64,000 nucleotides of DNA, taken from NCBI RefSeq assembly GCF_964355755.1, contig NC_092672.1, positions 1,798,001 to 1,862,000 on the forward strand, written 5' to 3'. Positions 5,344 through 46,962 of this stretch are shown one piece after another. Every line of letters begins with the position of its first letter. The first letter of the stretch is position 1. Origin of the DNA: Antedon mediterranea. Lineage: Eukaryota; Echinodermata; Crinoidea; Comatulida; Antedonidae. Made by a program: the position numbers and the translations under genes. The notes beneath the pieces were generated by a model, which saw nothing but the letters and a program-made list of their open reading frames with translations, made no database searches and was not told the origin of the DNA.

Positions 5344-5510
5344 TTAAAGTGAAGAACTATCAATCGAACTAGTTTAACAAAAAAAGTGTGATGTGCCCAA
5401 ATATGGTGGTGATGTGCCCAAATATGGTAGTGATATGACATCATCATGTCCATATATGGGCACCTCACAATTTTTTTCACATAAAGTTTGCTAGTGTAGA
5501 CAGAGCTTAA
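5344..5510. mobile_element. Foldback MITE, family M1, copy 1
   Basis: Family M1 is defined here. Its consensus ends are TAAAGCTCTGTCTACACTAT and the inverted complement. Inside are arms reading TTTGACAAAAAAATGTGATG and a variable number of 21-bp units of the CCATATTTGGGCATATCACTA type. Ends begin and finish with TA, as expected for Tc1/mariner-type targets. No coding capacity is present, so mobilisation needs a transposase in trans. This copy is divergent at its left end. Confidence 0.75.
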
Positions 5511-25100: not shown

Positions 25101-26928
25101 TTAGGTCTAGTTTTCTTGTACGAATACTCTTAACTAAATACAAAACAGAAAACTAATAGCCGCCAATCAATAATACACCAAGTATTTGTTTTTGTCAGGT
25201 ACTTAGGCTTGTGTGTATGCAGTCTTTAACCAATAGTGGCCTCAAGCCTAAAGTTTTAGATTTTTACAAAAGAGAAATTCTGCAGGTAAGAATGACATTA
25301 CATTGAACAGTAAAAATAATAATCACTTATTCATTCATATGATTGAACCCTGGACCTTAGAATTGGTAGGCAAGCATTTAACCACCAAGCTATATTAAAC
25401 ATCGTTATTGTACTATACAACTTTTTTTCTCTTTTTAGACGTATGGGTTTGAACATATTGTTACTCTTCACAATCTAGAAAAGATAGGTCTGTTGAAACA
25501 ACAAGGTCAAAAGTCATACTCAACAATTCGCAAAACACTCAAACTAGTAATGGAAGAAGTAAATGAACAGGTATAACATACAATAATGCACTGTACTAAA
25601 ATAATTTGTGCCCAAACTCCTTCAACATTAGTGGTACCATGCATGGACAATTTTACTCTAATTCTGTTTTCTTTTTACTTTAAGGAGACACTTTCCCATA
25701 AAACGAACAATGGACTATATTTGTTAACACTAACAACAACTGAGGCAGCGCCCTGCCTTATGAAAGGGGAATTTTCTTGGGTCCTCGGGTGTCCCTTAAT
25801 AGAGGTTCAACTTATAATAGTAACCAACACAGAGAATTATTTGCCCACACAAGGAGTGGTTAACAATAATATACCAACCAGTTTATTATTTTTGTTGCAG
25901 AATCCAAATGATATATCGTATGTTTTTAGTGGCTATGCTCCGTTGTCAGTTAGGCTAGCTCAATATTTAGCCAGGCCTGGGTGGAGGAGCATTGAAGAGG
26001 CATTACGACTTCTTCCAGGCCCATTGGTGGAGGAGCAACAGCAGATACCAGTAGGACTAAGGAAGAAACGTATGTTGTGATAGTTGTTGTAGGCCTACAT
26101 CTAAGTGTAGACAAATAGAAAAAATGAAGTGTAGAAAAAATAATATAAAATACCATTTCTTTATCTCGCGTATTTGTAGGCCCACCTGGTGGTGATGCTG
26201 ACAATCAAAAGGTTACATTAGTGGTGTTCTTAGGTGGGGTAACATTTGCTGAGATTGCTGCTCTGAGGTTCTTATCACAACAAGAAGATGGTGAGTAAAA
26301 ACAGCTAGCCTGGGAAAAAGTCAAATGCTGGCCTGGGAAAAAGTCAAGTGCTGGCCTGGGTAAAGGGAAATGCTGGCCTGGGAAAAAGTCAAGTGCTGGC
26401 CTGGGAAAGAGTGAAATGCTAGCCTGGGAAAAAGTGAAATGCTAGCCTGGGAAAAAGTCAAGTGCTGGCCTGGGAAAAAGTCAAGCGCTGGCCTGAGAAA
26501 AAGTCAAGCGCTGGCCTGGGAAAACGTCAAGCGCTGGCCTGTGAAAAAGTCAACTGATGGCCTGGGAAAAGGTCAAGTGCTGGCCTGGGAAAAAGTCAAG
26601 CACTGGCCTGGGAAAAAGTCAAGTGATGGCATGGGAAGTCAAGTACTACATTTTTGGGGTCTGAGCAACCAACTTTGGGTCTTACATAGAATCCTGTCCT
26701 GCAGTTTATTACAGTTTGTGTATCTAAAGTATATTACTGTAGTTATATTTAAATTGACATTTAATAAAACGTTTTTTACATTGTTACATTTCATATATAA
26801 TTTCAGCTCCAACGGATTATATTATTATTACAACTCAAGTCATGAATGGTCGAACTTGGATGGAATCATTAATGGAGAATTTAAGCGTGTCAAATCAAGA
26901 AGAAGGCGGAGCTTCACCATTCAGATGA
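16122..26928 (+). CDS. VPS33A: VPS33A, Sec1/Munc18-family subunit of HOPS/CORVET, complete, 15 exons, 613 aa
   Basis: Exons: 16122-16229, 18442-18507, 18956-19168, 19620-19724, 19981-20097, 20470-20644, 21209-21399, 21577-21667, 22030-22104, 24775-24854, 25199-25285, 25439-25570, 25901-26069, 26180-26290, 26807-26928. All introns are GT/AG and every phase closes (1842 nt). The product binds SNARE bundles and, in the HOPS and CORVET tethers, drives fusion of endosomes, lysosomes and autophagosomes. Family blocks: SGRVNL and LDKCAGSK at the N-terminus, [95 protein letters not shown] and [18 protein letters not shown]. These match VPS33A rather than VPS33B. Length is close to the vertebrate protein (about 596 aa), with a slightly longer serine/glutamate-rich C-terminus. 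Confidence 0.96.
16570..18311. mobile_element. 1.74-kb non-coding TIR element in VPS33A intron 1
   Basis: A 37-bp perfect inverted pair bounds it: the left end begins GGCGCTACTGCAGTTTCGCA, and its exact reverse complement ends at about 18311. GTGTTT lies directly outside both ends, a 6-bp target duplication (8 bp if one mismatch is allowed). The inside has no convincing transposase. It holds a 22-bp tandem (CCGGCACACAACAGGGCTACAC, about 17402-17450), an 18-bp perfect palindrome at 17810-17827 and an inverted CCAGACGGAGT pair (17856-17866, 17943-17953). It is a non-autonomous element of undetermined superfamily. Confidence 0.82.
17873..17935 (+). repeat. Short dispersed repeat shared with 42832-42891
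   Basis: CTCAAGTA...ATGAAACGCCATAT...ATATTTAT-TTTTTACTAATATTA is common to both sites, about 80-85% alike by eye. Here it sits between the inverted CCAGACGGAGT pair, so a small nested element is possible. Confidence 0.6.
18773..18917. mobile_element. Foldback MITE M1, copy 5, VPS33A intron 2
   Basis: Complete ends (TAAAGGTCTGTCTACACTAT ... ATAGTGTAGACAGAGCTT). It ends 38 bases before exon 3, so it covers or displaces the usual branch-point zone. Confidence 0.85.
19230..19370. mobile_element. Foldback MITE M1, copy 6, VPS33A intron 3
   Basis: Complete element with both arms (left CTCTGTCCACACTATC) and a CATCATGTCCATATATGGGG centre. Confidence 0.85.
19745..19906. mobile_element. Foldback MITE M1, copy 7, VPS33A intron 4
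   Basis: Both ends are present; two 21-bp units. It starts 20 bases after the exon 4 donor (exon ends 19724). Confidence 0.85.
20242..20280. mobile_element. Solo left arm of MITE M1 (copy 8), VPS33A intron 5
   Basis: Only TTAAGCTCTGCCTACACTAT-CAAACTTTATGTGA remains. It is followed by GAACCCTGA-containing short repeats at 20328-20402. Confidence 0.7.
20701..20865. mobile_element. Foldback MITE M1, copy 9, VPS33A intron 6
   Basis: Complete element with two 21-bp units on the left side of the centre. It starts 57 bases after the exon 6 donor. Confidence 0.87.
21013..21112. mobile_element. Foldback MITE M1, copy 10, internally deleted, VPS33A intron 6
   Basis: The left arm and first unit join directly to ATAATTTTGATAGTGTAGAT. 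The right end was then re-duplicated in short (AAGTGTAGATAGAACTTAAG at about 21123-21143). Confidence 0.75.
21764..21905. mobile_element. Partial pogo/Tigger-like MITE, VPS33A intron 8
   Basis: Starts TACAGTCAACTCTCCCATTA, as the complete element at 24904 does, and keeps a CTTTCCGGAAAAC segment. The right terminus is not found. Confidence 0.55.
22149..23362 (+). mobile_element. Helitron-like repeat, unit 1, VPS33A intron 9
   Basis: The left end is a hairpin (TTATCCGC 22149-22156 pairing with GCGGATAA 22162-22169). The right end is another hairpin (AACTCGTC 23332-23339, GACGAGTT 23346-23353) followed by TCAAAT and CTAG, then T. A stem-loop shortly before CTRR followed by T is the Helitron 3' signature. 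The body has many ACGCGCG words and no reading frame with Rep or helicase motifs. It is non-autonomous at best. Confidence 0.6.
23363..24514 (+). mobile_element. Helitron-like repeat, unit 2, head-to-tail with unit 1
   Basis: Collinear with unit 1 from about 22250 on, roughly 95% alike by eye, with the same 3' hairpin (24484-24491 with 24498-24505) and CTAG end at 24511-24514. It lacks the 5' hairpin. Unit 1 ends and unit 2 begins with no other sequence between. Confidence 0.6.
24904..25088. mobile_element. Complete pogo/Tigger-like MITE, VPS33A intron 10
   Basis: About 185 bp bounded by TACAGTCAACTCTCCCAATA and, inverted, TGTAGTCAACTCTCCAAATA. TA flanks and CAGTCAACTCTC-type ends fit pogo/Tigger derivatives. 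The inside is partly self-complementary (CTGGTTTTCCGG). Confidence 0.7.
26304..26640 (+). repeat. 23-bp minisatellite in VPS33A intron 14
   Basis: About 14-15 units of GGCCTGGGAAAAAGTCAAGTGCT type, 22-23 bp each, with scattered substitutions. It begins 14 bases after the exon 14 donor. The same unit in reverse orientation is at 43960-44117. Confidence 0.93.
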
Positions 26929-27003
26929 CATCATCAACATCTGACCAATCAGTGTGCCAAATAATGAGATTATACAGTAATATTATAAGATGTTAACTGT
27001 AAT

Positions 27004-27605
27004 ACAGCAGACACCCCCTATTAAAGGAACATTTTTGTGAATTGAATGATGGGAAATGTATGGTTTACACAACAGCCAACCCCTATTAAAGGGACATTTC
27101 TGTGAATTGAATGATGGGAAATGTATGGTTTACACAATAGCCAACCCCTATTAAAGGGACATTTCTGTGAATTGAATGATGGGAAATGTATGGTTTACAC
27201 AACAGCCAACCCCTATTACGGGAACATTTTTGTGAATTGAATGATGGGAAATGTATGGTTTACACAACAGCCAACCCCTATTAAAGGAACATTTCTGTGA
27301 ATTGAATGATGGGAAATGTATGGTTTACACAACAGCCAACCCCTATTAAGGGGACATTTCTGTGAATTGAATGATGGGAAATGTATGGTTTACACAACAG
27401 CCAACCCCTATTAAAGGAACATTTCTGTGAATTGAATGATGGGAAATGTATGGTTTACACAACAGCCAACCCCTATTAAAGGAACATTTCTGTGAATTGA
27501 ATGATGGGAAATGTATGGTTTACACAACAGCCAACCCCTATTAAAGGAACATTTTTGTGAATTGAATGATGGGAAATGTATGGTTTACACTACAGCCAAC
27601 CCCTA
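27004..27605 (+). repeat. 65-bp tandem array, nine units, just after the VPS33A stop
   Basis: Exact 65-base spacing of TGGTTTACAC at 27061, 27126, 27191, 27256, 27321, 27386, 27451, 27516 and 27581. Units are almost identical and vary mainly at AAAGGGACATTTCTG versus AAAGGAACATTTTTG. It begins 76 bases after the VPS33A stop codon, so it may be in the 3' UTR. Confidence 0.95.
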
Positions 27606-27996
27606 TTCAGATGACACCTTATTAAGTGACAAATCCAGGGTTAGGCACTTAACTATTCAAATTAAATAATATCAGTACAGTAATATTCTGTAATGACTGT
27701 AGCCCCATCATTTAAAAAACATAAAAACACTTTTGTAGGAGTGAGTGGGGATATCCAATGACTGAAATGGATTGTCCTATACTGAAATTGATACCAGCTG
27801 CTGTACACGTATTGCCTTCCTAGAGGTCTGTGTAGTTCAAGATGTACCTTACCTGGCTAGGTGGCTAGTACTTCTATTAGTTCTTTCTCAGTACTATTTT
27901 CTTTATTATTGGCCCCACTGTGACCATAGTCTATAACATTCCTCATTCAAACACTTTACAATTCATTTTATAACTTAGAGGATGTCTAGAAAGCTT

Positions 27997-28120
27997 TAAG
28001 CTCTGTCTACACTATCAATCTAGTTTAAAATAAAAAAGTGTGATGTGCCAAAATATGGTAGTGATACAACATCGTCGTTTCCACATAACGTTTAATAGTA
28101 TAGTGTAGACAGTGCTTTAG
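27997..28120. mobile_element. Foldback MITE M1, copy 11
   Basis: TAAGCTCTGTCTACACTATC left end and TAGTGTAGACAGTGCTTTA right end; the centre is shortened. Confidence 0.8.
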
Positions 28121-28187
28121 ACTAGAAAAGAAATTTGATTGTTTACACATGTATAAACTATGATGTAATATATAAATATGATATACC

Positions 28188-28193
28188 AATAAA
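28188..28193 (+). terminator. Possible VPS33A polyadenylation signal
   Basis: AATAAA 1.26 kb after the stop codon. If used, the 65-bp array and MITE copy 11 would be transcribed in the 3' UTR. There is no direct evidence for its use. Confidence 0.25.
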
Positions 28194-28601
28194 AATGTAA
28201 CAAATTTATTCTTTTATAAATAATTTTATTTGAAATTTTCATGAACTTTTTCACTTTATAATCACGCCTGTTTGTTATGGTAAGTTGATGTTACTTTTTG
28301 ATACCATTTTCAAAATCATAAGATATCTTTAAAATAAAATTTGTTTAATCTTTACTAATGAATTTGATTATTTTAAGGTGATTGATGGTGATGAGCGCCC
28401 TTATCTGAAGTTAATGTTCACCTGTCCGACCATGTATGGAAATCAAGTGACTTCATAGTTGTAAAGGTCAGTGACCTAGAGGGCAATGAACTTTTGATGC
28501 ATTTTTCTAGATGATGGCACTAACACAGCTTTAGGTGTTTATTTTCTTTTAGAATCTTTGTGTATATTGTCTGCATGTTTATATTTGTTAATTATTGGTT
28601 G

Positions 28602-28850
28602 AACTCTATCAAAGAAAAATGTGATCTGTCCATATATGGACATAATGATGTCATATCACTACCATATTTATGGAGTGCAGAATCTGTTTGGGCTTTAGCC
28701 TATTCTCATTCCTGGTTATTTTTACATTGATGACCGAATAAATATTATTATTATTATTATTATTATTATATTTGGGCATATCACCACCATATTTGGGCAC
28801 ATCGCACGTTTTTTGTCAAACTATTTTGATAGTGTAGACAGAGCTTTATA
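28602..28850. mobile_element. Foldback MITE M1, copy 12, split by a nested insert
   Basis: The left arm and centre run to 28670. The 21-bp unit resumes at 28770 with ATTTGGGCATATCACCACCA and the right end finishes GTAGACAGAGCTTTA. Confidence 0.82.
28671..28769 (+). mobile_element. Nested 5'-truncated retroelement with (TTA)n tail
   Basis: About 99 bases ending GACCGAATAAATATTATTATTA inside MITE copy 12. ATATTT occurs on both sides as a likely short target duplication. The tail matches that of the BLMH intron 6 fragment. Confidence 0.65.
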
Positions 28851-29187
28851 CAGGTATTGTCTGATGTCCTGTACAATTATTTTTAGAATTGTTATTACTG
28901 TATTGTATTGTTTCACCATGGAGGTATACTGGTTTCATAGAGTAGAATGGTTGGTTTATGACCACAGTACTTTAATATAATTGTTTTGCTTTCATTTACA
29001 TTTGTATTACCCAGGATGTTGGTATTATTTCAATTACATGGTTGGTTACTTTGTCAACATTGTGGTAATAACCTACACAATACCTACTGCTAATAAGTCT
29101 TTAGTTTAATTTACAAAGCTTGTTTTCATCTGTGGTTTTTAAAACTCAACAATTTGTTACTTTCTCAGTTTAGTCACCAATATTTAA
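28851..29187. other. Intergenic sequence, nothing recognised
   Basis: AT-rich; no exon-like motif or inverted ends seen. Confidence 0.5.
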
Positions 29188-29530
29188 ATGGCAATGTTTT
29201 TTTACATGAATGTGCCAAATTTGGACCTAAATTTACACATGATGAAACTATGTTAATGTTAGATGGAAATGTTTTTTTACATGAATGTGCCAAATTTGGA
29301 CCTAAATTTACACATGATGAAACTATGTTAATGTTAGATGGAAATGTTTTTTTACATGAATGTGCCAAATTTGGACCTAAATTTACACATGATGAAACTA
29401 TGTTAATGTTAGATGGAAATGTTTTTTTACATGAATGTGCCAAATTTGGACCTAAATTTACACATTGATATACTATGTTAATGTTAGATGGAAATGGGTT
29501 TTTTTCCATGAATATGCCAAATTTGGACCT
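29188..29530 (+). repeat. 75-bp tandem repeat, four near-perfect units plus a decayed one
   Basis: Units contain GAATGTGCCAAATTTGGACC and CATGATGAAACTATGTTAAT. The first four are essentially identical and the last drifts. Because 75 is divisible by three, frames stay open on both strands. I read this as a by-product of the repeat and not as a gene. Confidence 0.92.
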
Positions 29531-31307
29531 AAATTTAAAGCACTTGCCTCATTTCAAAATTTGAAGACAAACATTGATTGGTTTTGCCACAATCAAACTA
29601 AAATGAATATCTTTTTTAGGAACTCCTAATGTGATGTCTATGAATGCACCAATGAATGAACACTCATGAGGCTAATGGGTACGTGTCAGCAACCATTCCA
29701 ATGTAAGTTGTATTATAAGTATTTAAAATATTTCCCCCTAGACAACCCCCCCCCCCCCCCATCATAAGTGAGATTATTAATATTTGTATAGTGGTGGCTA
29801 ATCTCAATGTAATTAATTAGTAATTAAATATGTAATTGGTAATTAGTAATTAATTTAATTACTAATATATAACAAAATTTGTTTAGACTTGCCAGCATTT
29901 AATTTTCATGTATCAATAAACAATATATTTATTTCTTTATTATTGCTCTACATTTCTTTAAGATTAAATATATATACAAAATCAGAAATTTGTTTTTTGT
30001 AAATCAGAGCAAAAAATACATACGAGAAAAGTCAAAAGACTCTGTAAAATACAAAATACAAGTGTGTAACATTCAAGACAGTATAAACATTAAAAAACAT
30101 GCATTCTACATAACAATTAAAATAACAACATTGATTACATTTATCGTATTTATTAATTATTTAATTTATTCAATTGATATTTGGCTCTAAGAGTTATTGG
30201 TTCATCTTCAACAGATATTTTCTGTACATTCATAGAATGGAGTGGTTTACTGTTTAAATAATTCATATAGTTGAGTGAACCTTTGTTAACACCCACAGCC
30301 CCCCTCCCCCCCCCCCCCGATTTCAAAATGAATAGCACATGTTTCCCTTTGTTATCTTTGGAAGAAAAGTTGTATTTAAATTACTATGATTTGGTTGTTT
30401 TTCATTTGAAATAATGTGTGTTAAAATGTTTTTTTTTTATCAAGCTGTTAATGTAATGAATTCTTTTATGGTTGGCCTACATTTCATATATAATTATAGA
30501 TATCATTGATAACATACTGTTATTCAATTAATATCAGTACTCTGAGTGGTAACAAAGAATAACCTTAATATGTAATACCCATAGGATCAGAGCAGATTTA
30601 GCCCCTGTGACCTCTGATTACTGCTATTCAGCAAATCACAAATGAACAAGAACAGTATGTGTTACAGCTTTTGTTTCCTCCAAGGTTAAGGCCTGCTTCC
30701 ATGTGGTTTCCAAAAGAGGGCGCTGTGATTGCCCCAAGGTCGCTATTGTTCTTCAAGTGTGTTTTTGAAATAAAGTACCAATAATGACCTTGTTACAATA
30801 TACTTAAATGCTTTTGTTTCTGCTGTGTTGTTATCAGTGTAGGCCAGGACACGCTGGTGTGTAGGCCACGGCACACTGGTGTGTAGACCCAGTTTTACAA
30901 GGAGTAATTGTGTACAGCTAATACACTGTTCCCCCACCCCCTGCAATAACCACCCATTGCAGTAGAAAGGTGAAGGTTATTGGTTTCATTTTCTTTTAAA
31001 TTGAAGGTATGTGTTTTATTTATAGCATTTTTAATAATGTAGTAGATTGTATACTATACATTATGTGTTATTTTTTAGGTCTTCTTAACTTAATAATGTA
31101 ATCAATAATTTATTTTCTTTTATGTCTTTTACATTTATATAAACAACAATAGTTATTCATGTTTTTTAAACCTTTGTGCAACCTACAAAAATCTAATGTA
31201 AACAATGACATTGGTTAGTAGGTCTTCTAGTAGAAATCAGTGTTATCACATTTTGATATAGGCATAATACTAATGTAGTTTATTACTCCATCTATGGTAG
31301 GCCATAG
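29531..31307. other. Intergenic AT-rich sequence
   Basis: C14-16 homopolymers at about 29747 and 30306, and a run of AATTAGTAATTA-type words at 29810-29870. No supported gene. Confidence 0.5.
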
Positions 31308-31375
31308 TTGTAGTGGTCTAGTGGTTAAGGAGCTCACCTTGTTAGTGCTAGGTCATAGGCTTGAATCATATGGAG
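31308..31375 (+). mobile_element. Decayed tRNA-derived SINE head
   Basis: Box A-like TAGTGGTCTAGTGGTTAAGG and box B-like TAGGCTTGAATCATA at the right spacing. The flanks do not match the SINE at 3703, so this is another family or a strongly decayed copy. Confidence 0.5.
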
Positions 31376-32926
31376 AGCTATTTACTTTACCCTTGTTTAA
31401 ATGTATAGTAGTTATAAATATGATCATTATTATTTTGATTTCAAATGTTATTTTTCCATTCCATAGATCACAACGTATCATAAAACTGATAATGGTAGTA
31501 TCGATTCTCACCATTTAAAACACCAGTTGATCACTAAACAGCTGAGCTTCAAAAGGCTTCCCTGATCAAAGAATGACAGAGTAAGTCCTGGTCACTGCTG
31601 CACCATTCCGTAAATGAAGATCCATTTTTGTCAATGTGAGGGTGCAAGATTTAACAGAGGCATATGGCACAGGAGCACACACAGAATGTATTGTGGTTGG
31701 GCTGTAGCTTACAAGAACATATTCACTGAAAGCTGAAAACCATCAATCGCCTCGTATTCCTACTGCAATGCAAGAGATGCCTGCCTTAAAGAAGGTTACA
31801 CAAGACTGGACCTTTGACCACGGATGTATCTGTATTTTAATTTATCGACAATTTTGTTTAATTTTTTTTTTTATTTTAATTTAATTAGTTAAAATTGCAT
31901 GAAATTAATTTAGTAGAATGTAGTAATGTGCCAAAGGAAAATAGTTCCATTAATATTTAGCTGTTACTTAGCAACACTTTTTCAAAATTAATTAAAATTT
32001 ACTTTTATACTTTCTGGTTTCTGCACAAGTTATATAATACATGCATGCCCAATGTTTGTTAATTACTAAATAACATTTTTTTATGCACAGTTTAAAAAAA
32101 AAATGTATTTAATAAAATTATTAGATTTATTTTTAATCTTTAATGCTTATTTTGTATTCGTATTTATTGCAATACAACGTGTAATTCCATGTCTTGCCAA
32201 ACGTCATCACTGCTAGCTCTTTTTAGGCTCAGAGCAGTAGATTATTTTATATTTTAAATGCTTTTAGATTTTACGGTGCAATATATATGCTTTCTTTTTT
32301 AGGCTTTATTAGTTTATATTTGAATAGTATCATGGGAGATTTCAAATGTATCTTATTTCTTATAGTTTTTATTTATTATGTTTTATGCTACTCTTCCAAC
32401 GGTTTAATATTTTTCTATTCATCTTTTTATTTGAGGGCGCTCTGCAGGTTTTGTGAGGGTGCTCAGTAGCGTATTATATTAAATATTAGATTTAAAGATT
32501 GAAGGATGTATGATAGTATTAAACTATATGTCCGATATCCTATTAAGCAAAATGTCCAGTTAAAGTACTAACAGAGTTTGTGACGCACTGGTATTGTGAC
32601 TCAATTGATATCAGAAATGCGTGACATCATGAGTCGCACACTCCAGGGGCGCACGAACTTCTGACTGAATGTAATAAAGAATGATGAAGATAAGTTGATG
32701 ACAGATTAAAGTTTTGATATATTCAATTTTTTTAATTGTATTAATTTGTTTAAATTGTCTAATCTAAATGTAGGCATTGCATTACACTTTGTTGGTTTAA
32801 CCGCTGTCTGAATTTATTCGCGGTAATCGAAAGCGTTGAGTATTGCGCATGCGTAAAAATGTTCTTATCTACACTACAGTACTTGTTGTAATGTGAAGAA
32901 ATTGTTCGGGCCACTCAGCAGAACTA
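31376..32926. other. Intergenic sequence, nothing recognised
   Basis: 31470-31830 is less AT-rich than its surroundings and could be a noncoding transcript or UTR, but I see no coding signature. Confidence 0.4.
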
Positions 32927-33704
32927 GGGTCGTGTTTATACAACACCCTAAATTTGAACACGGCTTTAATTTTTAGCGTGTTGTTCGGACCGAGGTCAAC
33001 CCACCTTAACGTTTGCTGTTATACTAGAAATCACGATACCGTGTTGTACCGGAAGTTTCATCAACACGCAGTGCATGCTAGGATAAAAGGTCAAATCGTT
33101 GATCGCTTGAATTGAATTGTTGGCTGGGTTGTCAACAAATCATCGTCGCCTCCTCGCTGCTGTCCGATGTATTCGCGCGGTTTTTACCGTTTTCATTATT
33201 GTATTCGTTCACGTTTGCATTGTTGTTTATTTTGTTCTCGGTTCATTTAAATTAATAAAAGTTATTTTAAGGGTTTCATTGTTTCATCTATACACTATGG
33301 AAGAAGATGCCATTTTTGCGATGTTATTTTTTATTCTGTTTGGAGTGGGAAACGATAGTCTATAGAGGCCTACTACCACTACGAGTTGGCCCTACCAGGC
33401 TAGGCGTAAGACGTGGTAGGAGGATGATTGCTGGCAGCGAAGCAGCAATAAATGGGCCCAATCTTGTTAGACGTCGCATGACATGATTGATATTACGACC
33501 TGTTTTAACGAGAGGTCAAAATATACCCTGAGGACACTTCCAACACGGTAACGGCGACCGGGAATCCACCAAATTTTAGGATTCAGCCAAGTAGCCTTTT
33601 TTGCAATTAAAATCTCATTACACGGAATCTCTTTGTTGTTATACAACACACTTCTCGTAGGCGTGTAGAATATGCGTGTAATAGCGTGTTGTATAAACGC
33701 GCCC
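32927..33704. mobile_element. Harbinger-like TIR element, about 0.78 kb
   Basis: Inverted ends: the left begins GGGTCGTGTTTATACAACAC and the right, reversed, GGGCGCGTTTATACAACACG. Ends of the GGG...GTTTATACAAC form are typical of PIF/Harbinger derivatives. A short frame at 33117-33365 is hydrophobic and ends in stop codons; no DDE nuclease motif is seen. The target duplication is not clear (CTA left, TAA right). Confidence 0.65.
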
Positions 33705-35471
33705 TAAGAAAAGTTCGATTCGCTAGCGGGTAAACAGGCTAAGTACGACACAAACTGTAGGCTTACAAACCTATTTATTTAAGCAATATACCTAGCATTA
33801 ATTTAACGACGGACGGTGAATTGATTTTTGCCAAACAGAAATCGCACATACGTAGTTGTATTTATTTACCGCGTTGATCCGTAACAAATGATTGTTTTTG
33901 TACAGTCATTCGTTTACCACAAACCACTCAAACGCTGTAAGTTGATACTGAAAACGATATTGTTGAAATTGCAAACAATACCTCGTTTTATTGTTTTGAT
34001 AATTCAATTATTTTCTTTCCAGTGAACATGTATGCCAAACTCAATTTGATGTTGATTACCTTTCACAATTAAAAATAGTTGGTAAGCCTATTCGCTTTAT
34101 TTCGCAATGTAGTAGCTATTTATTTATATAACGAAATTTCAACTATCACACTTTACTTACGCAGGCGTTCAATTGTTGATACTAAATTGTGTTATGGATT
34201 TTGTACGCGGCATCAACTTAATAAGGAGTGCGTGTGAAAAAAGCATATTTATTTTATTTCCTTAAAGGCCTATTTCTGTTGAAAAATTCGAATAAACGGT
34301 TTTTGCAAAACCGATTTTATAAAAAAGATCGCACAGTGCAGCTTCATGGAAACTGTGTCGTGGAAGCGCATCCTCCTGATGTCCCCGCATGCGCATAATT
34401 ATTTAACATGACATAACTAACCTTAGGTCCTAGATCGTCGCAAATTGAAAACTCCTTATTTTCTCACAAACGTCAACACAGTATTTTAATAATTTTCCTT
34501 TTATTAAAAAAACACGAGAATAGATTTTAAAATTTGGTCTAAAAATGGAAGACACATGATAAAGCCTAAATTTAAATATAGGAATGTACACATACTCTAA
34601 TTATATAACTATAATATGTAATCAAACATGTACAGGCAAGGCACTAATGGTCCGGCCCGACACCTGATGTCCAGTGATTGGTCACAGCGACCCAATTCAT
34701 TGCTTCGGTTTGTTTTTCTTGATCTCTGTCGAAACACCTCCGCGAAAATGTTTCAAATGTGAGGCAACTTTTATTGCTCACAACTTAAACTTGAAGAAAT
34801 GATTTCACCAAGCTCACAGTGACAAATAAACCTAATATCTCAGTTATAAATCAATACAAACAAGGCGACTTACCAATATACCGCCTGCAGTATTTTGTTT
34901 ATCGCCTTGCTTTTTACAATTACTAAAAAATATGCTAATTTATTGTTTATGCCTAAATATAGTTAATAGGTCATATAGATAAGAAAGACTAATATACCCG
35001 TTTACATTACAAATATCACAATATACGGGTTTTTTTTCCTATTATAGTCAAGTTTGTGGCTTGACGCACAACCAACCACTGCGCTACACACAAACTTTCA
35101 CGGTTTGCTCTGGTGGGATAATCTTTGCTAACGCCGTACAGAAACGATGATCCCACGTGATCCATCATCAGTGGTTCATTCATAATAATAATTATTCGTT
35201 TCGTAATTTATTCGTTCTTATAAAGCGCCTATTGCACAGTGCTTGACATTATTACCCTGGTCATTTTTTGGATCAAACACGTCTGGAAACATACTCCTAT
35301 AATGCAGCTAGTAATCAGAGTAATGTTGTGTCTTGATCTAACCGGGTACCCAATACACAATGTGGTTTATCGAATAATATGTTTGATCATGGAGAACTCC
35401 ATGGTTTGATATAATGAACAACCACCACATCTTTCAATATTTAAAATATCCTATGAGATGACCTTAATTAA
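33705..35471. other. Intergenic sequence downstream of the MMP gene
   Basis: Holds a CCGCATGCGCATAATTATTTAACATGACAT block (about 34385-34415) that recurs in diverged form in the MMP intron at about 39048-39078. Otherwise nothing recognised. Confidence 0.4.
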
Positions 35472-38400
35472 TTAGTTAGTATAATTGATTATTATAAATA
35501 ACAAAAACGATATAAAAAGTGTTAAAAAATGTATAGTTTTTCTTGGACTTGAATTATCGATTGCTAGGTTGTTGTTTGGTATTGCTGCCGCTGTTGGTTG
35601 CGTTTCGCCCGCTTGGATTCCTAAACCACACCCAAACCAATCCTGGACTGTTAGCCTAGGATATCCGTAATTTACGTTAAAGTTCCACGGACTAAATTGA
35701 TAATACCAGCCGTAACTAGAGAAAAAGTAGAGGTAGTTATCTGTCCACTGCACGCCTGCCACGATGGATGGCGGTATACCTTTAAATGATCCTATGGAGA
35801 ATGGCCCGGATATTTGTTCAGAATAATCGTAGATATAGAATCTATCACCTGAAAATATATGAATTAATATTATATAGTTTGTTTGGATCTTTGGATAAGT
35901 AGAAAAATTTTTAACAATGTTTAATGCTAAAGTATTTTAATTGTAATATATATCTATTTATCCAATATCTATTTATTATATCCAAGAGGTTGTTTGAACT
36001 AACAAAAGCGATGATTCTTCCTTTGAAAAAGCATTCGATAAGAGTCGTTGCTTGTGATAGGTCAAATCAAAGAAATCCCAACCAATCGGAAGAGACCAGT
36101 AAAGGCGGTCCCGATCGATAAGAGTCGTTGCTTGTGATAAGTCAAATCAAAGAAGTCCCAACCAATCGGAAGAGACCAGTACAGGCGGTCCCGATCGATA
36201 AGAGTCGTTGCTTGTGATAGGTCAAATCAAAGAAGTTCCAACCAATCGGAAGAGACCAATAAAGCCGGTCCCGATCGCGAAAACCGGTCGTATGGAATGT
36301 CATGACAGTATACTTTCTAGCATGTCTATAGCCTAACTAGGCCTAGTAGTAGGCCTGTAGAAACTGAGTGAAAACCCAAATGAAAGGCCTACCTGTAAAG
36401 AAATAAGTCTGCCCATTTCCTATACCCTCCACAACCGCATCCAATTTAGCTACATCGTACGGAAACCCACCGAACTCTGTACTTATATCACGTGGGAATC
36501 CCATATCAAGATTGTACAATGTATACCGATAGACCTGCCGACCCTGAAAAATTATTGAACATTTATAAAATCGTGATAAATTAAATTTATTTTTCATACT
36601 TTTCGATCGTTGAAATGTCGTAGCCTAATCTTTCAACATCCTAAATGTTAATGAATAGCCAGTCAACATAATGATTAACGCTATACAATTTCGTTTTGTA
36701 GATTAGGCCTAGGCCTAAATTTCAATTTACATTGACATTGACTAACAGTAAGCAGGAAAAAATGAATTTTACAATCATTATTGCACAAAACGCGGAGAGG
36801 ACGGGCGGTTGAGCGGAAAGCCGCTCAGGATAGATTGTAAGCTACGCGGTTTTCGGCCTACCGCTTGTCCGCCGTGTAAATTGAACTTTAGTGTGTATCA
36901 GTAAAAGCCTATTATAGTTTCCATTTATAGGAGCAAACTTCATTATTGAAGGCTACTGCTCCACTGACCCTAGATTTATGTATGCATGCTGTATGTGGTG
37001 CATACACAGACAGTTAAATCTTAGTTTTAAAAATTCGCGATCTTATTCTTAAAACTGAAATTCAAAATACCTTAAAAAAGTAAGTCTTGGCCACACGATC
37101 CTTCCAGATGTAACTGTTCTTAACCGTTACAGCGGCATCTAGATTTGCCGCGAGATGAGGCCACGTACTATCAATTAGCTTAGGGATGTACACCTTACGA
37201 TCAATCATTTGCCAGTAATATCTACCTAAAATAAAGTGTGGACAAAAAGCTTCATTATAGAGATTGAAAAAGACAGATAAGCACTGATTCACACTATAGG
37301 TCTGCTCTGTGCTGGATTCTCAGTGCTTTAAATCCATAATGTGAATCAGGACAAACACTATCATATTATGATAGTGTTTTTCCAGTGTTATATATGTATG
37401 ATAAATCCGTAAAAAATGGTTAGAGGTTAGGACCAGCGTGTGAAAGACAAAGTGGACAAATTTAGATACAGTACTGGGAGTCGGCTATCTGTACTACGGT
37501 CTAAATCAGGTGGTCATTGCCACTGTAGCATGACTGAAGAGAGGTTTTTGTCATCTATCTCTAGAACGCCTCTTAAGTTTCCTATTCCTAAAGGCCAACT
37601 CAGACTGCGTCGTACGCCGAGGCTCGACGAAACGTCTGCTTCGTCGGTACTGTCTGAATTTAATCCCGACGAGACGAGTCATCTTGAGATAGCGTAGGGC
37701 GTAGTTTTTAGGTCGTCGGGAGAACTTTAAACATGTTTAATTTTCTCCCGATTAGACGACTCGTCATACGGACAAAGGTGTCCCCTGAATAGGTCTGGCC
37801 GCAGTGTTAAAACTCCTTGTTGGTTTCATGTAAAGCGTCCACTGAATATGGGTGTCCATTGAAAGGGATGTCTCAGTCAAAATTGAACTTTATTTGTAAA
37901 ACAAATACCTTTGAATATGTAAGTTCCTCCGTCAGCTCCGACTGTTATTGTGTCGAACTCCACTTGGCAATTACTGGGTATGAACGGCTTTGTTACTGTT
38001 GGTGCTTCTGTCAGCTTTTTCGTACGTTCAGTTGGTTGATACGAATCAGTAGGTGGATACCAAATAGTTGGTGCTCCTGCAATAATTGTCATGGATTAAA
38101 TAAATATACAGTGTGGAATAATTCTCAATACTTTATCTCCATATGTGACAATGTGACACACAGGAGATGCTTTATTACGACGTTTGCCTATTATACTGGA
38201 CAAATTTATATTCAGACCGAGAATAAAAAACGATTAGGGGAAAAATATCTAGAGGTACTATATGTTCTATAGAACCCAGTCGGATGAATGTTGTGACCTT
38301 TGACCCTAAGCTTTCAACACTCCATCAGAATAACTGTCATATTTTACCAGTAGGCCTCAGAATGAGTAAATCTATTAGAAGTACTTATTAATAACCTATG

Positions 38401-40521
38401 ACCTGTTCTAAGCTTACGGTACTGTACTAAATAACGGGCGGTTGCTACCACCAATTCAAATGATTTTCTAAAACACTTTTGTTCCTAGAAATGTTGTAAT
38501 TTCTTATCAGAAATATAACCAGTTAAATCTATCTGTTACCATAGAGTTCTTGGGCTCCATTTATGTCGTCTTGATCTAGTTCTAGGTGTGCATTATATGC
38601 CTTATTCCACGGCCACATTATTGAGTTGAATAGGTTACTATGTGCTAAGCCAATGCTGTGTCCAAATTCATGTGTGGCAACCGATACAATATTTGTCCCT
38701 TGGAAAAATAAAAATTATATATTTTGTTTTAACGGGGTAACGCAACGACGTTGGCGTCGTCTTTGTCAACGTCATCGTCGCCATTGTTAACGTCATCGTC
38801 GCCGTTGTTAACGTCATCGTCGTCGTTGTTAACGTCATCGTCGTCGTTCTTAACGTCATCGTCGCCGTTAACGTCATCGTCGCCGTTGTTACACCGAAAT
38901 GCGAATTGCTTTGATGCGGGTTGCGACGACCGACTACGCAGACACGACACAGGTTAGTTCATGTCATGTCGTCAATCGCCTGAACCTAGAAAGCTTTGTA
39001 GAGGTGAAGTAAGCAACTGTCATGGAAGTGTAGTGCAAGGAAGCTTCACCGCATGCGCATAATGAATTAACATGACGTAGTTATGTCGTCAATAAACTCA
39101 CCAGTTGTTACACCCACCGTCCACGTTTCACTGTTATCAAAGTGCGCATCACCGGACCAGATGCCACTACCCGGGTAGAAAGCATGTGCCAGGACTTGGC
39201 CTTTGCCTTGGAAGACTATCCCGTCACCGTGATCATCATAAGGCTCAGCAAACAAGACTATGATGTCAGGGTCTTCGATATATTTGCGTTCAAACGTAAG
39301 CCCTGATACGTCCGACCAATACTGTGAAAGGAACAGATTATATTTTAGTAGAATTATATAGAAACATGCATTAATAAGTATAAGTATAAACATATGTATG
39401 GCATATCTATATTTTATAGAATTGGATTTGTCTGGTGTGAGTCAACAGGTCACGTGACATCCACCAGGATCTGGTTAAACACTATCACCTTCAATACCAA
39501 TCATCACGCCCATCATCTTCATCATCAATATCATCATAATCATCATTATCGTCGTCGTCTTTATCATCATCATCATCAATACACCGTCACCATCATCATC
39601 GCCATCATCTTCGTCATCATCTTCATCGCCATAATCATCGTCATCATCATCAGTATCATTTAAATTATTATTATTATCTATCGTCATCATCAACTTCATC
39701 CTCGTCATCATCATGCCATTCATCTTTAAATTCTTCATTAGGTTGTTTATCGTATTCCGGTTTACCTTTAATGCAGTCTCAATTGCGTCATCAAGTTGTG
39801 AAGGCGTTACTTTGACGGTGTATCGTAAAATATTCCACGTTAAATGTTTGCGGTCCCACTTGGTGCTATGCAGCGAATACCGCTTTGATCTACCACTGGA
39901 CGAAGTGTCTGTTTTATCTGATAGGCCGCATCTTGGTGTGTTCATCAACGTTAGCGTGGGGTCATCAAGCTCGCCTGTAATAATTGTAATAATAATTGTA
40001 ATAAAATATTCGTAAAACTGAAAGCCCTCCCCCATTGTTCAGTCACTCGGCAGCAGCGCAAAGACTTGTTTTAAAATATTCATTCATAATTCCAGTGTTC
40101 AATAGTACCAAAAGAAGCGGGTGCTTGTCAGTTTGGATACCATTTATGTACAGTACACACATACCAGACAACATTCATGAACAAAAACAAGGACCGGTGA
40201 GCCGGACACTCCGTTGCTTTAATAACGTCGGTGGGTAAGCGGACATAAGAGTGACCATCACAAACTATTGTCACTGAAATCAGCAATACGGTTCCTTAAC
40301 ACTATTGTTTCTATTGCTACAGTTTACTTAATATTTCGTTTCCAGTCGAAAGTCCTTATATATTATTATGTAGTCTGTCGTCGTTTTCCCAAGCATTCCA
40401 TACCTGTCTGAGGTATATTTCCGGTCGCTTGGTATTTTTTAAGAGCTTCAACGAAAGCACTGATGTCCGTGTTTGCCCCTGGATCAGGTTCCTCTAAGTA
40501 TTCGTACTTTATTAAATGCTC
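35472..40521 (-). CDS. Membrane-anchored matrix metalloproteinase, 8 exons seen, first exon missing
   Basis: Exons in coding order: 40521-40404, 39974-39766, 39321-39102, 38698-38540, 38076-37909, 37225-37071, 36543-36393, 35848-35472 (1557 nt, phases close). Order of parts: prodomain (KYEYLEEPDPGA); cysteine switch PRCGLSD; furin site RSKR; catalytic domain with HGDG and the zinc site HEFGHSIGLAHS followed by the Met-turn NSIMWP; hinge; four-bladed hemopexin domain opened and closed by Cys (SNC ... WFGC); and a C-terminal hydrophobic stretch with almost no tail after it. Furin activation plus this tail suggests a GPI-anchored type like MMP17/MMP25, acting at the cell surface on matrix proteins. 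The signal-peptide exon was not joined in frame. GLSD replaces the usual G(V/N)PD. Confidence 0.92.
36036..36275 (+). repeat. 80-bp tandem repeat, three units, in an MMP intron
   Basis: AGAGTCGTTG recurs at 36041, 36121 and 36201. Each unit contains TCAAATCAAAGAAGTCCCAA, CCAATCGGAAGAGACCAGTA and GGCGGTCCCGATCG. Units are above 90% alike by eye. Confidence 0.92.
37353..37379. repeat. Perfect palindrome in an MMP intron
   Basis: 13-bp arms (AAACACTATCATA) around one base. CACTATCA resembles the arms of MITE M1, but the rest of that element is absent. Confidence 0.7.
38751..38892 (+). repeat. 21-bp tandem repeat in an MMP intron
   Basis: About six units of GTTGTTAACGTCATCGTCGCC type, one of 18 bp. 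Its pattern of triplets keeps all frames open. Confidence 0.9.
39490..39700 (+). repeat. (ATC)n-rich microsatellite in an MMP intron
   Basis: About 210 bases of imperfect ATC/ATT triplets. On the minus strand it reads as an open Asp/Met-rich frame continuing past the donor at 39766, which is an artefact. Confidence 0.9.
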
Positions 40522-40763
40522 CTAAAATTAAACAAAAAACAATCTGTAAACATCATGCAGATAAAATAATCATACAGACCAGAATTACGTACAGGTGTGG
40601 ATATACATTTCCATATTTTTGCCATAGTTTTTTTTTAAATATTCACAACGATGATTGGGGAGACATTGATGGGGCGCGCGTGCTTACAACCAAACTCGAC
40701 ACTTCGACCAGGGAGTACATCAACTCCCTGCTTCGACACTGCACAGTTTTGGTTGAGTGTAGA

Positions 40764-40941
40764 CAGTGGCGTAACGCGGAGGTCTGAGGCCCCTGGTTTA
40801 GAAACCCTCCGACGCTGGATGCCTTGGGCGTTTTTAGCATTTTCGACATATTTAATGCCTGTGCCTCTGTGCACTACTCATCAAGGTCCCCCATAACCTC
40901 CAGGGTTTAGTCAGTGAGCGCTCATAGCCGTTACGCTACTG
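40764..40941. mobile_element. hAT-like MITE upstream of the MMP prodomain exon
   Basis: 178 bp with ends CAGTGGCGTAACG and, inverted, CAGTAGCGTAACG. CAGTGGCGTA ends are common in hAT derivatives. The flanking octamers (AGTGTAGA, ATTCTAGA) are only partly alike. Confidence 0.65.
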
Positions 40942-41035
40942 ATTCTAGATCTAGGTGACGAACAACGACACAATATCCGCAGATCAAAGATCATCGTAAA
41001 CCGTGTGACCACCGACCTATTTCTGATGGACATAC

Positions 41036-41253
41036 CATCCCACTCCGGGAATAAGCATTGTTAATGTACTGTAAATAATTGCACCGAGAATACAAAGACA
41101 AATACAAATCGAGCAATAAAGCATTGTCACGCTGTCGGCGTATAATTTGTACAACTTTTTGACTTGTTTTACCGACGACAAAACTGGCGCCGCTATAAAT
41201 GTTTTCGATAACAAGTTATTTATTCGGTATTCCGTCGGGAATTTCTTCTTCAA
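41036..41253 (-). other. Candidate signal-peptide exon of the MMP gene (frame not resolved)
   Basis: A frame with a strong hydrophobic stretch (LYCSICICLCILGAIIYS) ends at a good donor, GGATG|GTATGT. Joined directly to the exon at 40521 it would run into a stop, because it ends in phase 2 while the next exon needs phase 0. Either a further exon lies between, or this is not the first exon. Confidence 0.3.
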
Positions 41254-42075
41254 ACTTTGATTGGAAATACGGTCAATTGTTATCCACTAAGGACGTTTGA
41301 TGTACGTGTAGATCACATGCACGTGAGCTCGCGCGCGGGCGTACTACATGATACTGACTGTAGAACTACAAAAAAAAGCCTCCAGTGCTGTACCCTGGGC
41401 TACGTACACAGACACTAGACATAAATTGCTCGACCAAATATAGTGGTTAGATGGCACCAGGTATTCAAACTATAATTATCACGCGACCATTTTATTTGAT
41501 GAAAACATTGTAAAATTCAATTTATAGAAAAGCATTGAACGAATACTATGAAAGATTTCAATGCATCACAGCTTTTGAAAAAAAAAATGTTTGACGGTAT
41601 GGGCGGTACCAGTATTTGACATAAACAAAACAATACATCGAATAAATGTCTTGTAATTTTGATATGCCCGTGAGCATTGAGCAATTGAACTTAAGGGCCA
41701 CAATGGAAATAAGTTTGACCTTTGGTTACTTTTTTGTGTTACCCTGAATTCATTCTTTGTTTTTTTTTTATGTTGTGTTATTTTATGAATTCGAATAAAG
41801 AAATGAAACCTAGATTTTTTTATTTTTTTTTAATAGATAGTTCCGGTATTCCAAGGCGTAACTATTGCCTACTAGCATCTTGCGGTGAAAAGCAAACATT
41901 ACAATTTATGTTTGTTTACTGAATTTAATGCCCAATGTGATCGACTTTGTTGCTATTAAAGTTTATTTAGAAAATAAAACGTTTAGAAAGCCTCCTGGAA
42001 ATAAGGCGTCCTTAATATTCCGTTGTGCAATTTTGCGTGACGATAAAGAGGGCGCATTACTAGCTCCTTTTGTTT
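41254..42075. other. Intergenic AT-rich sequence, nothing recognised
   Basis: CpG-rich words near 41320-41340 (CGCGCGCGGGCG); no supported exon. Confidence 0.4.
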
Positions 42076-42217
42076 TAAGCTTGGTTCGCACTAGGACGCA
42101 ACGCAAGCGAGTTGACCAATGACAAGCGACAGTTTGAATAATCCATCGCTTGTGATTGGTCAAATACCTTACGTTGCGTCTACGTCCTTACGTTGCCTCC
42201 TAGTGGGAACCAACCTG
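42076..42217. mobile_element. Foldback MITE, family M2, copy a
   Basis: Family M2 is defined here. The ends are AAGCTTGGTTCCCACTAGGA-CGCAACGCAAG and the inverted complement. The inside reads TTGACCAATGACAAGCGACA ... TCGCTTGTGATTGGTCAA, so each copy places CCAAT and ATTGG facing each other about 45 bp apart. About 140 bp, no coding capacity. Confidence 0.82.
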
Positions 42218-42831
42218 TTAGTGGCGGTTGCATCGCTGTTGGTTGTAAACTGAATAAAATTTAAAAAAAATAAAATAAATTGTACTCTGGTGTACAGATC
42301 GATCGAGCGTACACCACAATGTTTTGTAAATCTTTAGTTGTAGGTACAAAAATATCGAATTCCCATGACATATAAATCACCATGCGTAACATTTTTTTCG
42401 ACGTAAACACAAATAATTACATTGTTTGTTTCCTAATAGTTTGGTTGTTATCGTGCAGGAAATAAACTATTCTACCCTAGGCTAAAATACATGTATTTTC
42501 TCTCCCATGCTTAAACATAGTAGGCCTGATTTAGATTATAATGATTACATTGATGATAGTGATATCTTTTATCTCATCATAAAAAGACGATTAACTAACG
42601 ATAAGAAGAAGAATATGATTATCAGTGTAAGTTATGAGAACGCTCTCATCTCATGACGTCAAACTTTCTTTAATACTTTCAGATTAAAATAATTTAACTG
42701 ATAAACTTCACAAGGTGACTATAAAAAGTTACCAATGTGGTTTTCCCATGATAAAAATTAGTGGGCAATATACCCTATAATAAAAGTTCCCGGCGTTTCA
42801 TTTTTTTTGGAAAATACTACGAGTTTCTGAG

Positions 42832-42891
42832 CTCAAGTATTATACCAATGAAACGCCATATATGTTAACATATTTATCTTTTTACTAATAT
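42832..42891 (+). repeat. Short dispersed repeat shared with 17873-17935
   Basis: Same AAACGCCATAT ... TTTTTACTAATATTAGA block in the same orientation. Confidence 0.6.
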
Positions 42892-42920
42892 TAGATAGAA
42901 ACATAGTCTAGAACCTAAAC

Positions 42921-43036
42921 TAAAGCTCTGTCTACACTATCAAACTTTATGTGACAAACAAATGTGATGTGCCCATATATGGACATGATGATGTCATATC
43001 ACTACCTTATTAGTTATACCACTACATATTTGGGCA
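42921..43036. mobile_element. Foldback MITE M1, copy 13, right end lost
   Basis: The left arm and centre are intact; the right arm is replaced at about 43037 by the 45-bp array. Confidence 0.8.
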
Positions 43037-43170
43037 TATCACAAAGCTAAGCATGCTTGTAAGACATGCCATAGGCGTCCATATCACAAAGCTAAGCATG
43101 CTTGTAAGACATGCCATAGGCGTCCATATCACAAAGCTAAGCATGCTTGTAAGACATGCCATAGGCGTCC
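43037..43170 (+). repeat. 45-bp tandem repeat, three units
   Basis: GCTAAGCATG recurs at 43046, 43091 and 43136. The units are identical over TATCACAAAGCTAAGCATGC and TTGTAAGACATGCCATAGGC. CATATCACA also belongs to the MITE, so the array may have grown from its broken end. Confidence 0.92.
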
Positions 43171-43959
43171 ATATTGTGCGTCTCCAAGTAGCAGACAAAT
43201 CTTTCTAAATTATATAAGGAGTTTTCTATAAAAAATAACAAATTCTGCCAAATATAAAGTCACCTAATTTTATTCACACGTAACGTGCGATTTCTTTGAT
43301 CAACCGCGTCCTAAACACAGAGGTACACAATAGTGACACTATTGGTACCCTTTGACAGGACCCGCCAATAGATAGATTCGTGTGAAAGCCATTGTTAATT
43401 TCTGTGAAGGCAAATTTCCTTATAAATATTATACATTGTCTATTATACACATGTGTGTTGTCATTTTAGTCGGGTTTCTCTTTATCTGATTTATATTTTG
43501 TAGAATCTGTTAGGTAAATTGTAAGTTGTGTAAATCTCATAATTTGTGGTTATCGAAAACTAATCGGCGTCTCTTTAATCTAATTTAATCGTGCCGTACC
43601 GCGTAATATCAATTCAGAATCTGTGTGTGTTTAGATATTCTCAATAATACCGTTCAAAATTTGTATCGGAACCCTTTCAATCTGGATTACGGTTTGTCTT
43701 ACAACTTGTATGATGTTGTTCTTTTTGTGAGAATGATGTTCATATCTGATAATCTTAAAGTTTACAAATCGGCCGAAATGAAAATCCACCAGGAATAACG
43801 GAACTTCTTGTTTAGATTGTACTTTTTCTACAGTGGTAGTGGCCCAGCCTAGGATATTAAATTGTCATAAAAACGGAAAGATGCAATCAAGATTTGTTTC
43901 GTATTCGTCAACCAACATTGCTGCTTTCTCGGCTTCTTTTAGTAATTCGTAACGTTTTC
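43171..43959. other. Intergenic sequence, nothing recognised
   Basis: No exon, RNA gene or inverted ends identified. Confidence 0.45.
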
Positions 43960-44117
43960 CCAGGCGCGGCCAGCACTTTGCTTTTTCCCAGGCCAGCACT
44001 TGACATTTTCCCAGGCCAGCACTTGGCTTTTCCCAGGCCTAGCACTTGACATTTTCCCAGGCCAGCACTTGGCTTTTTCCCAGGCCAGCACTTGACTTTT
44101 TCCCAGGCCAGCATTTT
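43960..44117 (-). repeat. 23-bp minisatellite, second site (inverted)
   Basis: About seven units of TTTTCCCAGGCCAGCACTTG type, the reverse complement of the 26304-26640 unit. Confidence 0.93.
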
Positions 44118-44481: not shown

Positions 44482-44620
44482 TAACTTGGTTCTGAACTGG
44501 ACGCAACGCAGGTGAGTTGACCAATAACAAACGACGGTTCGGATGACACACGCGTTGTGATTGGTCAAATTACTTGCGGTGCACCTACGTCGCGCGTTGC
44601 GTCCAAGTGGCAACCAAGTC
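44482..44620. mobile_element. Foldback MITE M2, copy b
   Basis: CTTGGTTCTGAACTGGACGC left and GCGTCCAAGTGGCAACCAAG right. The inner GACCAATAAC and TGATTGGTCA pair is kept. Confidence 0.75.
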
Positions 44621-46962
44621 TGATATCTAACCATGGTCTAAATGCTATTTTCAGTACTGGCCTTCCACGGTGGATGTGGTTAGGTTCCATAGGCCTAGAT
44701 CAATACCAGAGTAGTAACACTTTTAACAATGTTCTGTACTGGAATCCCTAATCCTCGGTGATCTGCGTATAACACGTGATAGGATCCCATTGTCTATTGT
44801 CTGACATATATCTATTTGTTCAATAGTGTTAAGCTGATTATTTGCTGCAACTTGTAAAACTAAGCAAGTATATTCATCAATAACCAATACGCTGTTAGTG
44901 ACAGCATAGAAATATTATAATATCTCTACGGTGACAGGCAGTTTTTGCTATTGTCACTGTTAACGGTCAAATAGACAATATGTAATAAAACTCGCGTCGT
45001 CACGTACTACTATACTAATCTCGCTGCCATCACATTTAATTATGTTATACCTTTCTTGTTGAATTACTTTATACAATACATTTTGTTTATGTAATCAGTT
45101 AATTTATTATAGTTTAATATCAACGATTTAATGTCTGTTATTTTTAATAATGCTAAAATTAGTTAACGTAAACACATAAACCATAGAGTTCTATTTTTAT
45201 ACCTCCATGCATAAAGTACAGATACAGAAGTCCAGATAAATGCGCTGGTATCGAATTCTAACAATTGGTATATTAAATCAATCAACTGTGTTGCTGTATC
45301 GAACAGTTATAGTTAAATATTAACATATTATTATGGAAAACATTAATTTCCTTCTTTTAGAACCGGTCCTAACAATAAATATATAAGAAAAAGCATTAAA
45401 GTTGTTAATATAAAATACTGATTGAATATGTTATAATGGTGTACATGTGTACATGTTACTATTATGGTCCTATACAGCCTAGAATCACCAGCTTAACGTC
45501 CAGTTCGAAGTTTTAAAACGATAATTCTTTGGAATACTAATACAGTACATTACTGCAGTATTTCGAGGTGTACGAAATATTGCTCTAGGCATATCGTCGA
45601 TGTCAGTTAAAAGATATCGCATGATGATCTCCGCTCTTTTTTATATTTACATACTCTATAAAAATGTTAACGTCAATGGAAAAGAGGCTGGTGGATGTTT
45701 AAACAGCAAAGTTCATATTTGACACCAGTAAAGTACACAAGGTCTCGTAGCACGTAGAAGTTACAGACATCATTTGGAACATAAAAGTTCATTTTTCTAT
45801 TTTTTAGCAACGTTTCTTTACCTTTTCTCACGTATTTTGATCTGTAGGCCTATACTTTAAAAACATCATCATTGGAAACTAGTTTCTAAACGGTTTTTAA
45901 AAGAATTGTCAAGCATAGCTTTGTTGACAGCAAACAATGCGAAGTGTTCACACTGTTGTTTTGAAAACGAAACAAACTGCCTAAAATAAATCCGATGACG
46001 TAACAAATTGAATATTCTAAATCCATAATTATAGATAAACATGACCTCTACAAAAAGTCTAGAAAACAATAAAGCAGTTCTAGTTGATGCATTTATTTAG
46101 TAAAAGAAATGAAGGAAATGATAACGATATTGTAGTAGCACCAACACAAACAAAGTATAGATACGATATCTGATTATATTTTTGGACCACCTAAAAATTA
46201 GAATGGCGTCCTTGTCATAAAGAATAACGAAAAGAAAAAAATACTGATAAAAAAACATTAAAATCGGCAAACTGAGAAAGCTATTCAGCTGGTTGCATTT
46301 TGTGCTTTCGTTTTAGTGTGACTTTTAACCTTGCATGAAATATTGTTATAAAGCACACTGATTTATTTAAATAGATTATTAAAATAGATGTTATGTATTG
46401 TTATTGTCATATGACTAACAATTAATAAGTGAAGCTGCGACGCCATGCATATGCATACAGCATGTTGCGATCAGTAAGAAGTCTATGTTTTTATTGACAT
46501 TAAAATCGATTTTCAACGTATCAATTGCTTTACTCCACCCTCACTGATTAATCACGCGCGCGCGAATAGAATTCACCAACAGCCAATAAAATAAGTTTTT
46601 ACAGGTCAATAAATACACACGAAAGCAGTAATAATAATCTATTGAGCACATTATACATAAAGTATGCAGGAATTAGACTAGTTTATCTTCCATGATCCAA
46701 CTTTGCCACAACAAACCCGTTAGGCCTTCATTCATTGTCTCAGTGGTTGGTTCTCAATTGTAGAATTTGTTGATTTACCCGGTTTGTTTATTGAAATATT
46801 TTAGAGCGGACCTAATGATTTTTTTTTTTTTAGTTTTTTAATCTGAATTGATCATGTCATTTCTAGGGAACAGATATTGAGATTTCATTTTTATCTGATG
46901 GTTGTGTGTTTGCAGAACTTTCTCCACTTTCCAGCTAGCTGTATGGCTACGCGTGAGACTTC
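44621..46962. other. Intergenic AT-rich sequence, nothing recognised
   Basis: A (CG)5-like word lies at about 46555. No supported exon or element. Confidence 0.45.

Follow-up and report, generated by a model that had tools for sequence, protein, structure and literature searches.

A minisatellite with a unit of 23 bp was found at two places in the window, 17.3 kb apart and in opposite orientation, and the flanks of the two arrays (A1 and A2) are no more alike than expected by chance. Both arrays descend from one minisatellite, and A2 was probably founded by a single local inverted templated insertion of array DNA, followed by separate homogenisation; we put the probability of this reading at about 0.6. 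The pair is genuine but ordinary, a minisatellite duplicated locally with no need of a carrier. The window is the whole stretch of DNA analysed (64,000 nucleotides, C3:1798001-1862000), and the genome searched comprised 354 Mb in 18 contigs.

The main features, in positions of the window, were as follows.

26304-26637, + strand: array A1, 14-15 units of 23 bp with the consensus GGCCTGGGAAAAAGTCAAGTGCT (TRF, unit scan, units listed)
43952-44116, - strand: array A2, the A1 unit reverse-complemented, about 7 units counting partial edges (TRF, alignments, units listed)
about 26291-26805, + strand: last intron of VPS33A, holding A1 (sequence reading; junction spanned by the match to the human VPS33A protein)
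about 26806-26928, + strand: last coding exon of VPS33A, ending ...GASPFR stop (sequence reading and match to human VPS33A)
35472-40521, - strand: matrix metalloproteinase gene with hemopexin and matrixin exons (Pfam; propeptide exon from the ORF list)

The two arrays and their gene setting

TRF reported A1 at 26304-26637 with 14.6 copies of a 23-bp period (87% matches) and A2 at 43968-44113 with 6.3 copies of the reverse-complemented unit; the homology of A2 to A1 reaches over 43952-44116. A2 was also called as a 46-bp higher-order unit (94% matches), in which AAGCC and AATGTC alternate, and the private variants of the A1 units were an AGCC start, GTGAAATGCT and AAGCGCT. Both arrays contain the consensus unit without any mismatch, and they could be aligned over about 165 bp at 87%. 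When GGCCTGGGAAAAAGTCAAGTGCT was scanned with up to three mismatches, 18 matches were obtained in the window, 13 on the + strand (A1) and five on the - strand (A2), with none in the window outside the two arrays and 0 expected from 100 shuffles. Head-to-tail units in the range of about 10-100 bp, with variants among them, place both arrays in the minisatellite class. The sequence-only reading had proposed one minisatellite at two places in opposite orientation, and this was borne out by TRF, the unit scan and the A1-A2 alignment; the end it gave for A2, 44117, was correct to 1-4 bp.

A1 lies inside the last intron of VPS33A, of which it makes up about 65%, starting 13 bp after the beginning of the GTGAGT donor at 26291. 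The spliced translation of the last exons matched human VPS33A (4bx9) over residues 435 to 594 (E = 2e-69), and the gene is intact across A1. The RNA structure of the A1 intron was considered and rejected, with folding weaker than that of shuffles (z = +2.1). Double-stranded RNA between the VPS33A and metalloproteinase transcripts was rejected too, because the sense strand of both genes carries the same strand of the unit and their RNAs would not pair.

A2 is located 3.5 kb past the most upstream recognised coding exon of the metalloproteinase gene, either in the first intron or in upstream DNA, and apparently sits in non-coding DNA. The propeptide exon of this gene (40366-40521) was read from the ORF list and has no Pfam match. 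A position of A2 within a coding exon was rejected, as the minus-strand ORFs across or beside the array gave no Pfam match, and for the 33-aa ORF flanking A2 no paralogue was found elsewhere in the genome. Elsewhere in the window, a carboxypeptidase propeptide exon was observed twice on the - strand, at 54927-55304 and 60356-60730 (only the first in the Pfam scan), which suggests that an M14 carboxypeptidase gene has been duplicated.

Distribution of the unit and its flanks

Arrays of the 23-bp unit were sought genome-wide with one DNA search and four pattern scans. Nine matches to two units in tandem, at no more than three mismatches, were obtained, all within A1 and A2, and A1 plus its flanks, used as DNA query against the whole genome, matched A1 and A2 alone. 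The single unit with up to three mismatches had one match outside the arrays, on contig C11, at an apparent exon-intron junction (by reading, the end of a coding exon); it was rejected as a further array, since this unit stands alone. Two looser patterns, in which the spacing was left free, returned A1, A2 and one unrelated match, and the reversed control gave three matches. In total, no further array of the unit was found in the 354 Mb by scans that could miss strongly diverged arrays or N stretches.

When the 100-bp flanks of A1 and A2 were compared, the best 20-mer similarity was 12-14 matches, the same as for random window pairs (mean 12.8, maximum 15). Neither terminal inverted repeats (TIR) nor a convincing target-site duplication (TSD) was found at the borders of the arrays, and words common to the two sides of either array did not exceed 4 bp. 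With 1.7 kb around A2 as the query, the genome search found A1 and a dispersed palindromic, MITE-like repeat that is separate from the array. This repeat lies at about 44500-44625, 0.4 kb from A2 and without touching it, and has dozens of scored matches in the genome (986 first-look candidates).

Possible origins of the array pair

For two identical 23-mers to lie within 18 kb of each other by chance, we estimate a probability of about 5e-6; A1 and A2 therefore share descent. The chance that a random landing in the genome would be as near as 17.3 kb is about 1e-4, and the event was therefore probably a local one. A putative template for A2 is found elsewhere and its flanks are absent at A2, as in templated insertions (TSI or MMBIR); since no flank travelled with the array, the copied piece started and ended inside it. 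A1 is suggested as the source, because the best alignment of A2 falls wholly within A1 (26368-26527), with an equal number of units and with its edge at the sole AACGT variant of A1, a match that requires a 5-bp gap.

In the reading preferred here, a piece of about 160 bp, equal to 7 units, would have been copied once from the interior of one array, most likely A1, and placed inverted 17 kb away, with array DNA alone being moved. The copying may have taken place during double-strand-break repair or by replication template switching (MMBIR/FoSTeS-like, or with a DNA or RNA patch). The common unit, the restriction to two places found, the inverted and local arrangement and the unshared flanks are observed, whereas a single copying step, its direction and the pathway of repair are inferred. 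Afterwards, slippage and gene conversion would have altered the units separately, giving the 46-bp alternation of A2 and the AGCC and GCGCT variants of A1.

Reinsertion of a small extrachromosomal circle comes second to templated insertion, and we regard it as unlikely. A few units excised from A1 would have formed a circle, which rolling-circle replication may have amplified before its reinsertion in inverted orientation 17 kb off. A circle would also account for the movement of array DNA alone, and a circle of 7 units fits about as well as templated insertion, with the start and end phase closing within 1 bp. The insert of A2 is 7 units minus 1 bp long (160 = 7 x 23 - 1), but a length so near to an integral number has a chance of roughly 1 in 8. 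Moreover, a released circle has no strong reason to land 17 kb away, and the scans of 354 Mb revealed no other reinsertion. A more general proposal, held here to be unlikely, is that existing tandem arrays of this lineage give rise to new ones nearby via small circles or template switching; minisatellites would then spread locally without a mobile element, and the pair would be a young two-copy example.

An ordinary inverted segmental duplication, with flanks that have decayed and arrays kept alike by mutual gene conversion, is improbable. Inverted repeats 17 kb apart can undergo gene conversion with each other, but the private variants in each array are contrary to strong mutual conversion, and inverted homology of the unique DNA flanking A1 and A2 was not found, with no trace of similarity between the flanks. 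The sequence-only reading had set against its mobile carrier the case of only two arrays, flanked as in an inverted segmental duplication; two arrays alone were indeed found, but without the shared flanks.

That a transposon or another mobile carrier brought the array to its second site has been largely refuted and is retained with very little weight. Carriers bearing minisatellites do exist in this genome. A 21-bp unit (ATCACTACCATATTTGGGCAT) was found inside a palindromic MITE with terminal inverted repeats, the ends of the element reading AAAGCTCTGTCTACACTATCAAACTTTATGTGACA and AGTTTGATAGTGTAGACAGAGCTTT, and two-unit matches of the 21-bp unit numbered 10,557 genome-wide. Insertions of this MITE were observed in the window at 5388, 6070, 11546, 19819, 20745, 56420, 61810 and other positions, and those seen there hold about 2 to 4 internal units. 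Since this family was detected, the tests can see a carrier where one is present. Like A1 and A2, the 21-bp minisatellite has a short tandem unit occurring in both orientations; unlike them, it combines thousands of matches with shared TIR flanks. For A1 and A2, by contrast, neither sharing of flanks, nor dispersal over the genome, nor TIR or target-site duplication was found, and the two places lie within 18 kb of each other; nothing therefore points to a mobile carrier. Of the earlier claim that the common unit reflected spread by a carrier or a rolling-circle process rather than chance slippage, the part on common descent held, whereas genome-wide spread and carrier sequence in the flanks were not confirmed.

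Had an inversion with its breakpoint inside a single array split it in two, a 17-kb segment would now be bounded by oppositely oriented arrays. This was rejected as scarcely credible, because VPS33A is intact across A1, with its last exon lying in the stretch that would have been inverted, and the order before the inversion would have broken this conserved gene. Equally little speaks for two seeds that resembled each other by chance and were amplified independently, or for selection of a shared regulatory motif: the lone unit-like 23-mer on C11 indicates that single seeds can occur, but the 5e-6 estimate stands against two of them, and the folding of the A1 intron RNA, poorer than that of shuffles, also counts against this reading, as does the lack of a known conserved role.

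It is possible in principle that recombination between A1 and A2 could invert the 17 kb between them, as the sequence-only reading had supposed, and such an inversion would detach the last exon (26806-26928) from VPS33A.

Comparison with other repeats and known systems

A continuous sample of 164 kb, consisting of the window and 50 kb on each side, was used for base rates. It contained 58 arrays with a period of at least 10, belonging to 48 families. Forty-six families were confined to a single place, one was the MITE-borne family (ten arrays) and one was the A1/A2 pair, the sole pair of its sort among the 48.

Other arrays of the window differed in their distribution. The 45-bp array at 43035-43174 has three copies that are 100% identical and lies at the broken end of a MITE starting at 42922; its unit was found at no other place in the whole genome, so this array is probably a very recent amplification. 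The 75-bp array at 29184-29537 (4.7 copies) is also confined to a single place genome-wide. It was observed to encode 25-residue repeats (LDGNVFLHECAKFGPKFTHDETMLM) in an open frame on the + strand, the - strand being open as well. The 65-bp array at 27004-27607 (9.3 copies, 96%) is situated directly past the VPS33A stop and has relatives of 68-83% on many contigs.

The A1/A2 pair is a clear example, probably due to a single event, of a new array arising close to its parent minisatellite with no carrier involved, with the carrier-borne 21-bp minisatellite beside it supplying the contrast. If relatives show an empty site, the event could be dated and oriented; otherwise the pair would be of local interest only.

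No described two-site minisatellite of this sort was found in the literature search. The dispersed euchromatic TCAST arrays of Tribolium (PMC3411249) are similar in that one tandem unit occurs at separate euchromatic places near genes, but TCAST is an abundant satellite with many copies genome-wide, whereas for A1 and A2 two arrays were found, close together.

Two classes of insertion resemble A2 in its proposed mechanism, and neither precedent (PMC5110952, PMC8421209) fits the A1-A2 distance exactly. Templated insertions at human breaks were 73-414 bp long in the assay, with a median of 191 bp, and derived from distant regions (PMC5110952). The class 2 TSI/TSIP of Onozawa and Aplan (PMC5110952) are, as proposed for A2, short inserts copied into a break with no TSD and no source flanks; they map to distant regions, whereas the source of A2 would be a tandem array 17 kb away, and its insert would have gone on changing in tandem form. 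Insertions made by MMBIR typically lie inverted and close to their template, the inverted copies as surveyed being within about 100 bp of it (PMC8421209). Compared with the 17 kb between A1 and A2 this is a far shorter distance, and what the MMBIR/FoSTeS insertions (PMC8421209) have in common with A2 is an inverted copy with its template nearby.
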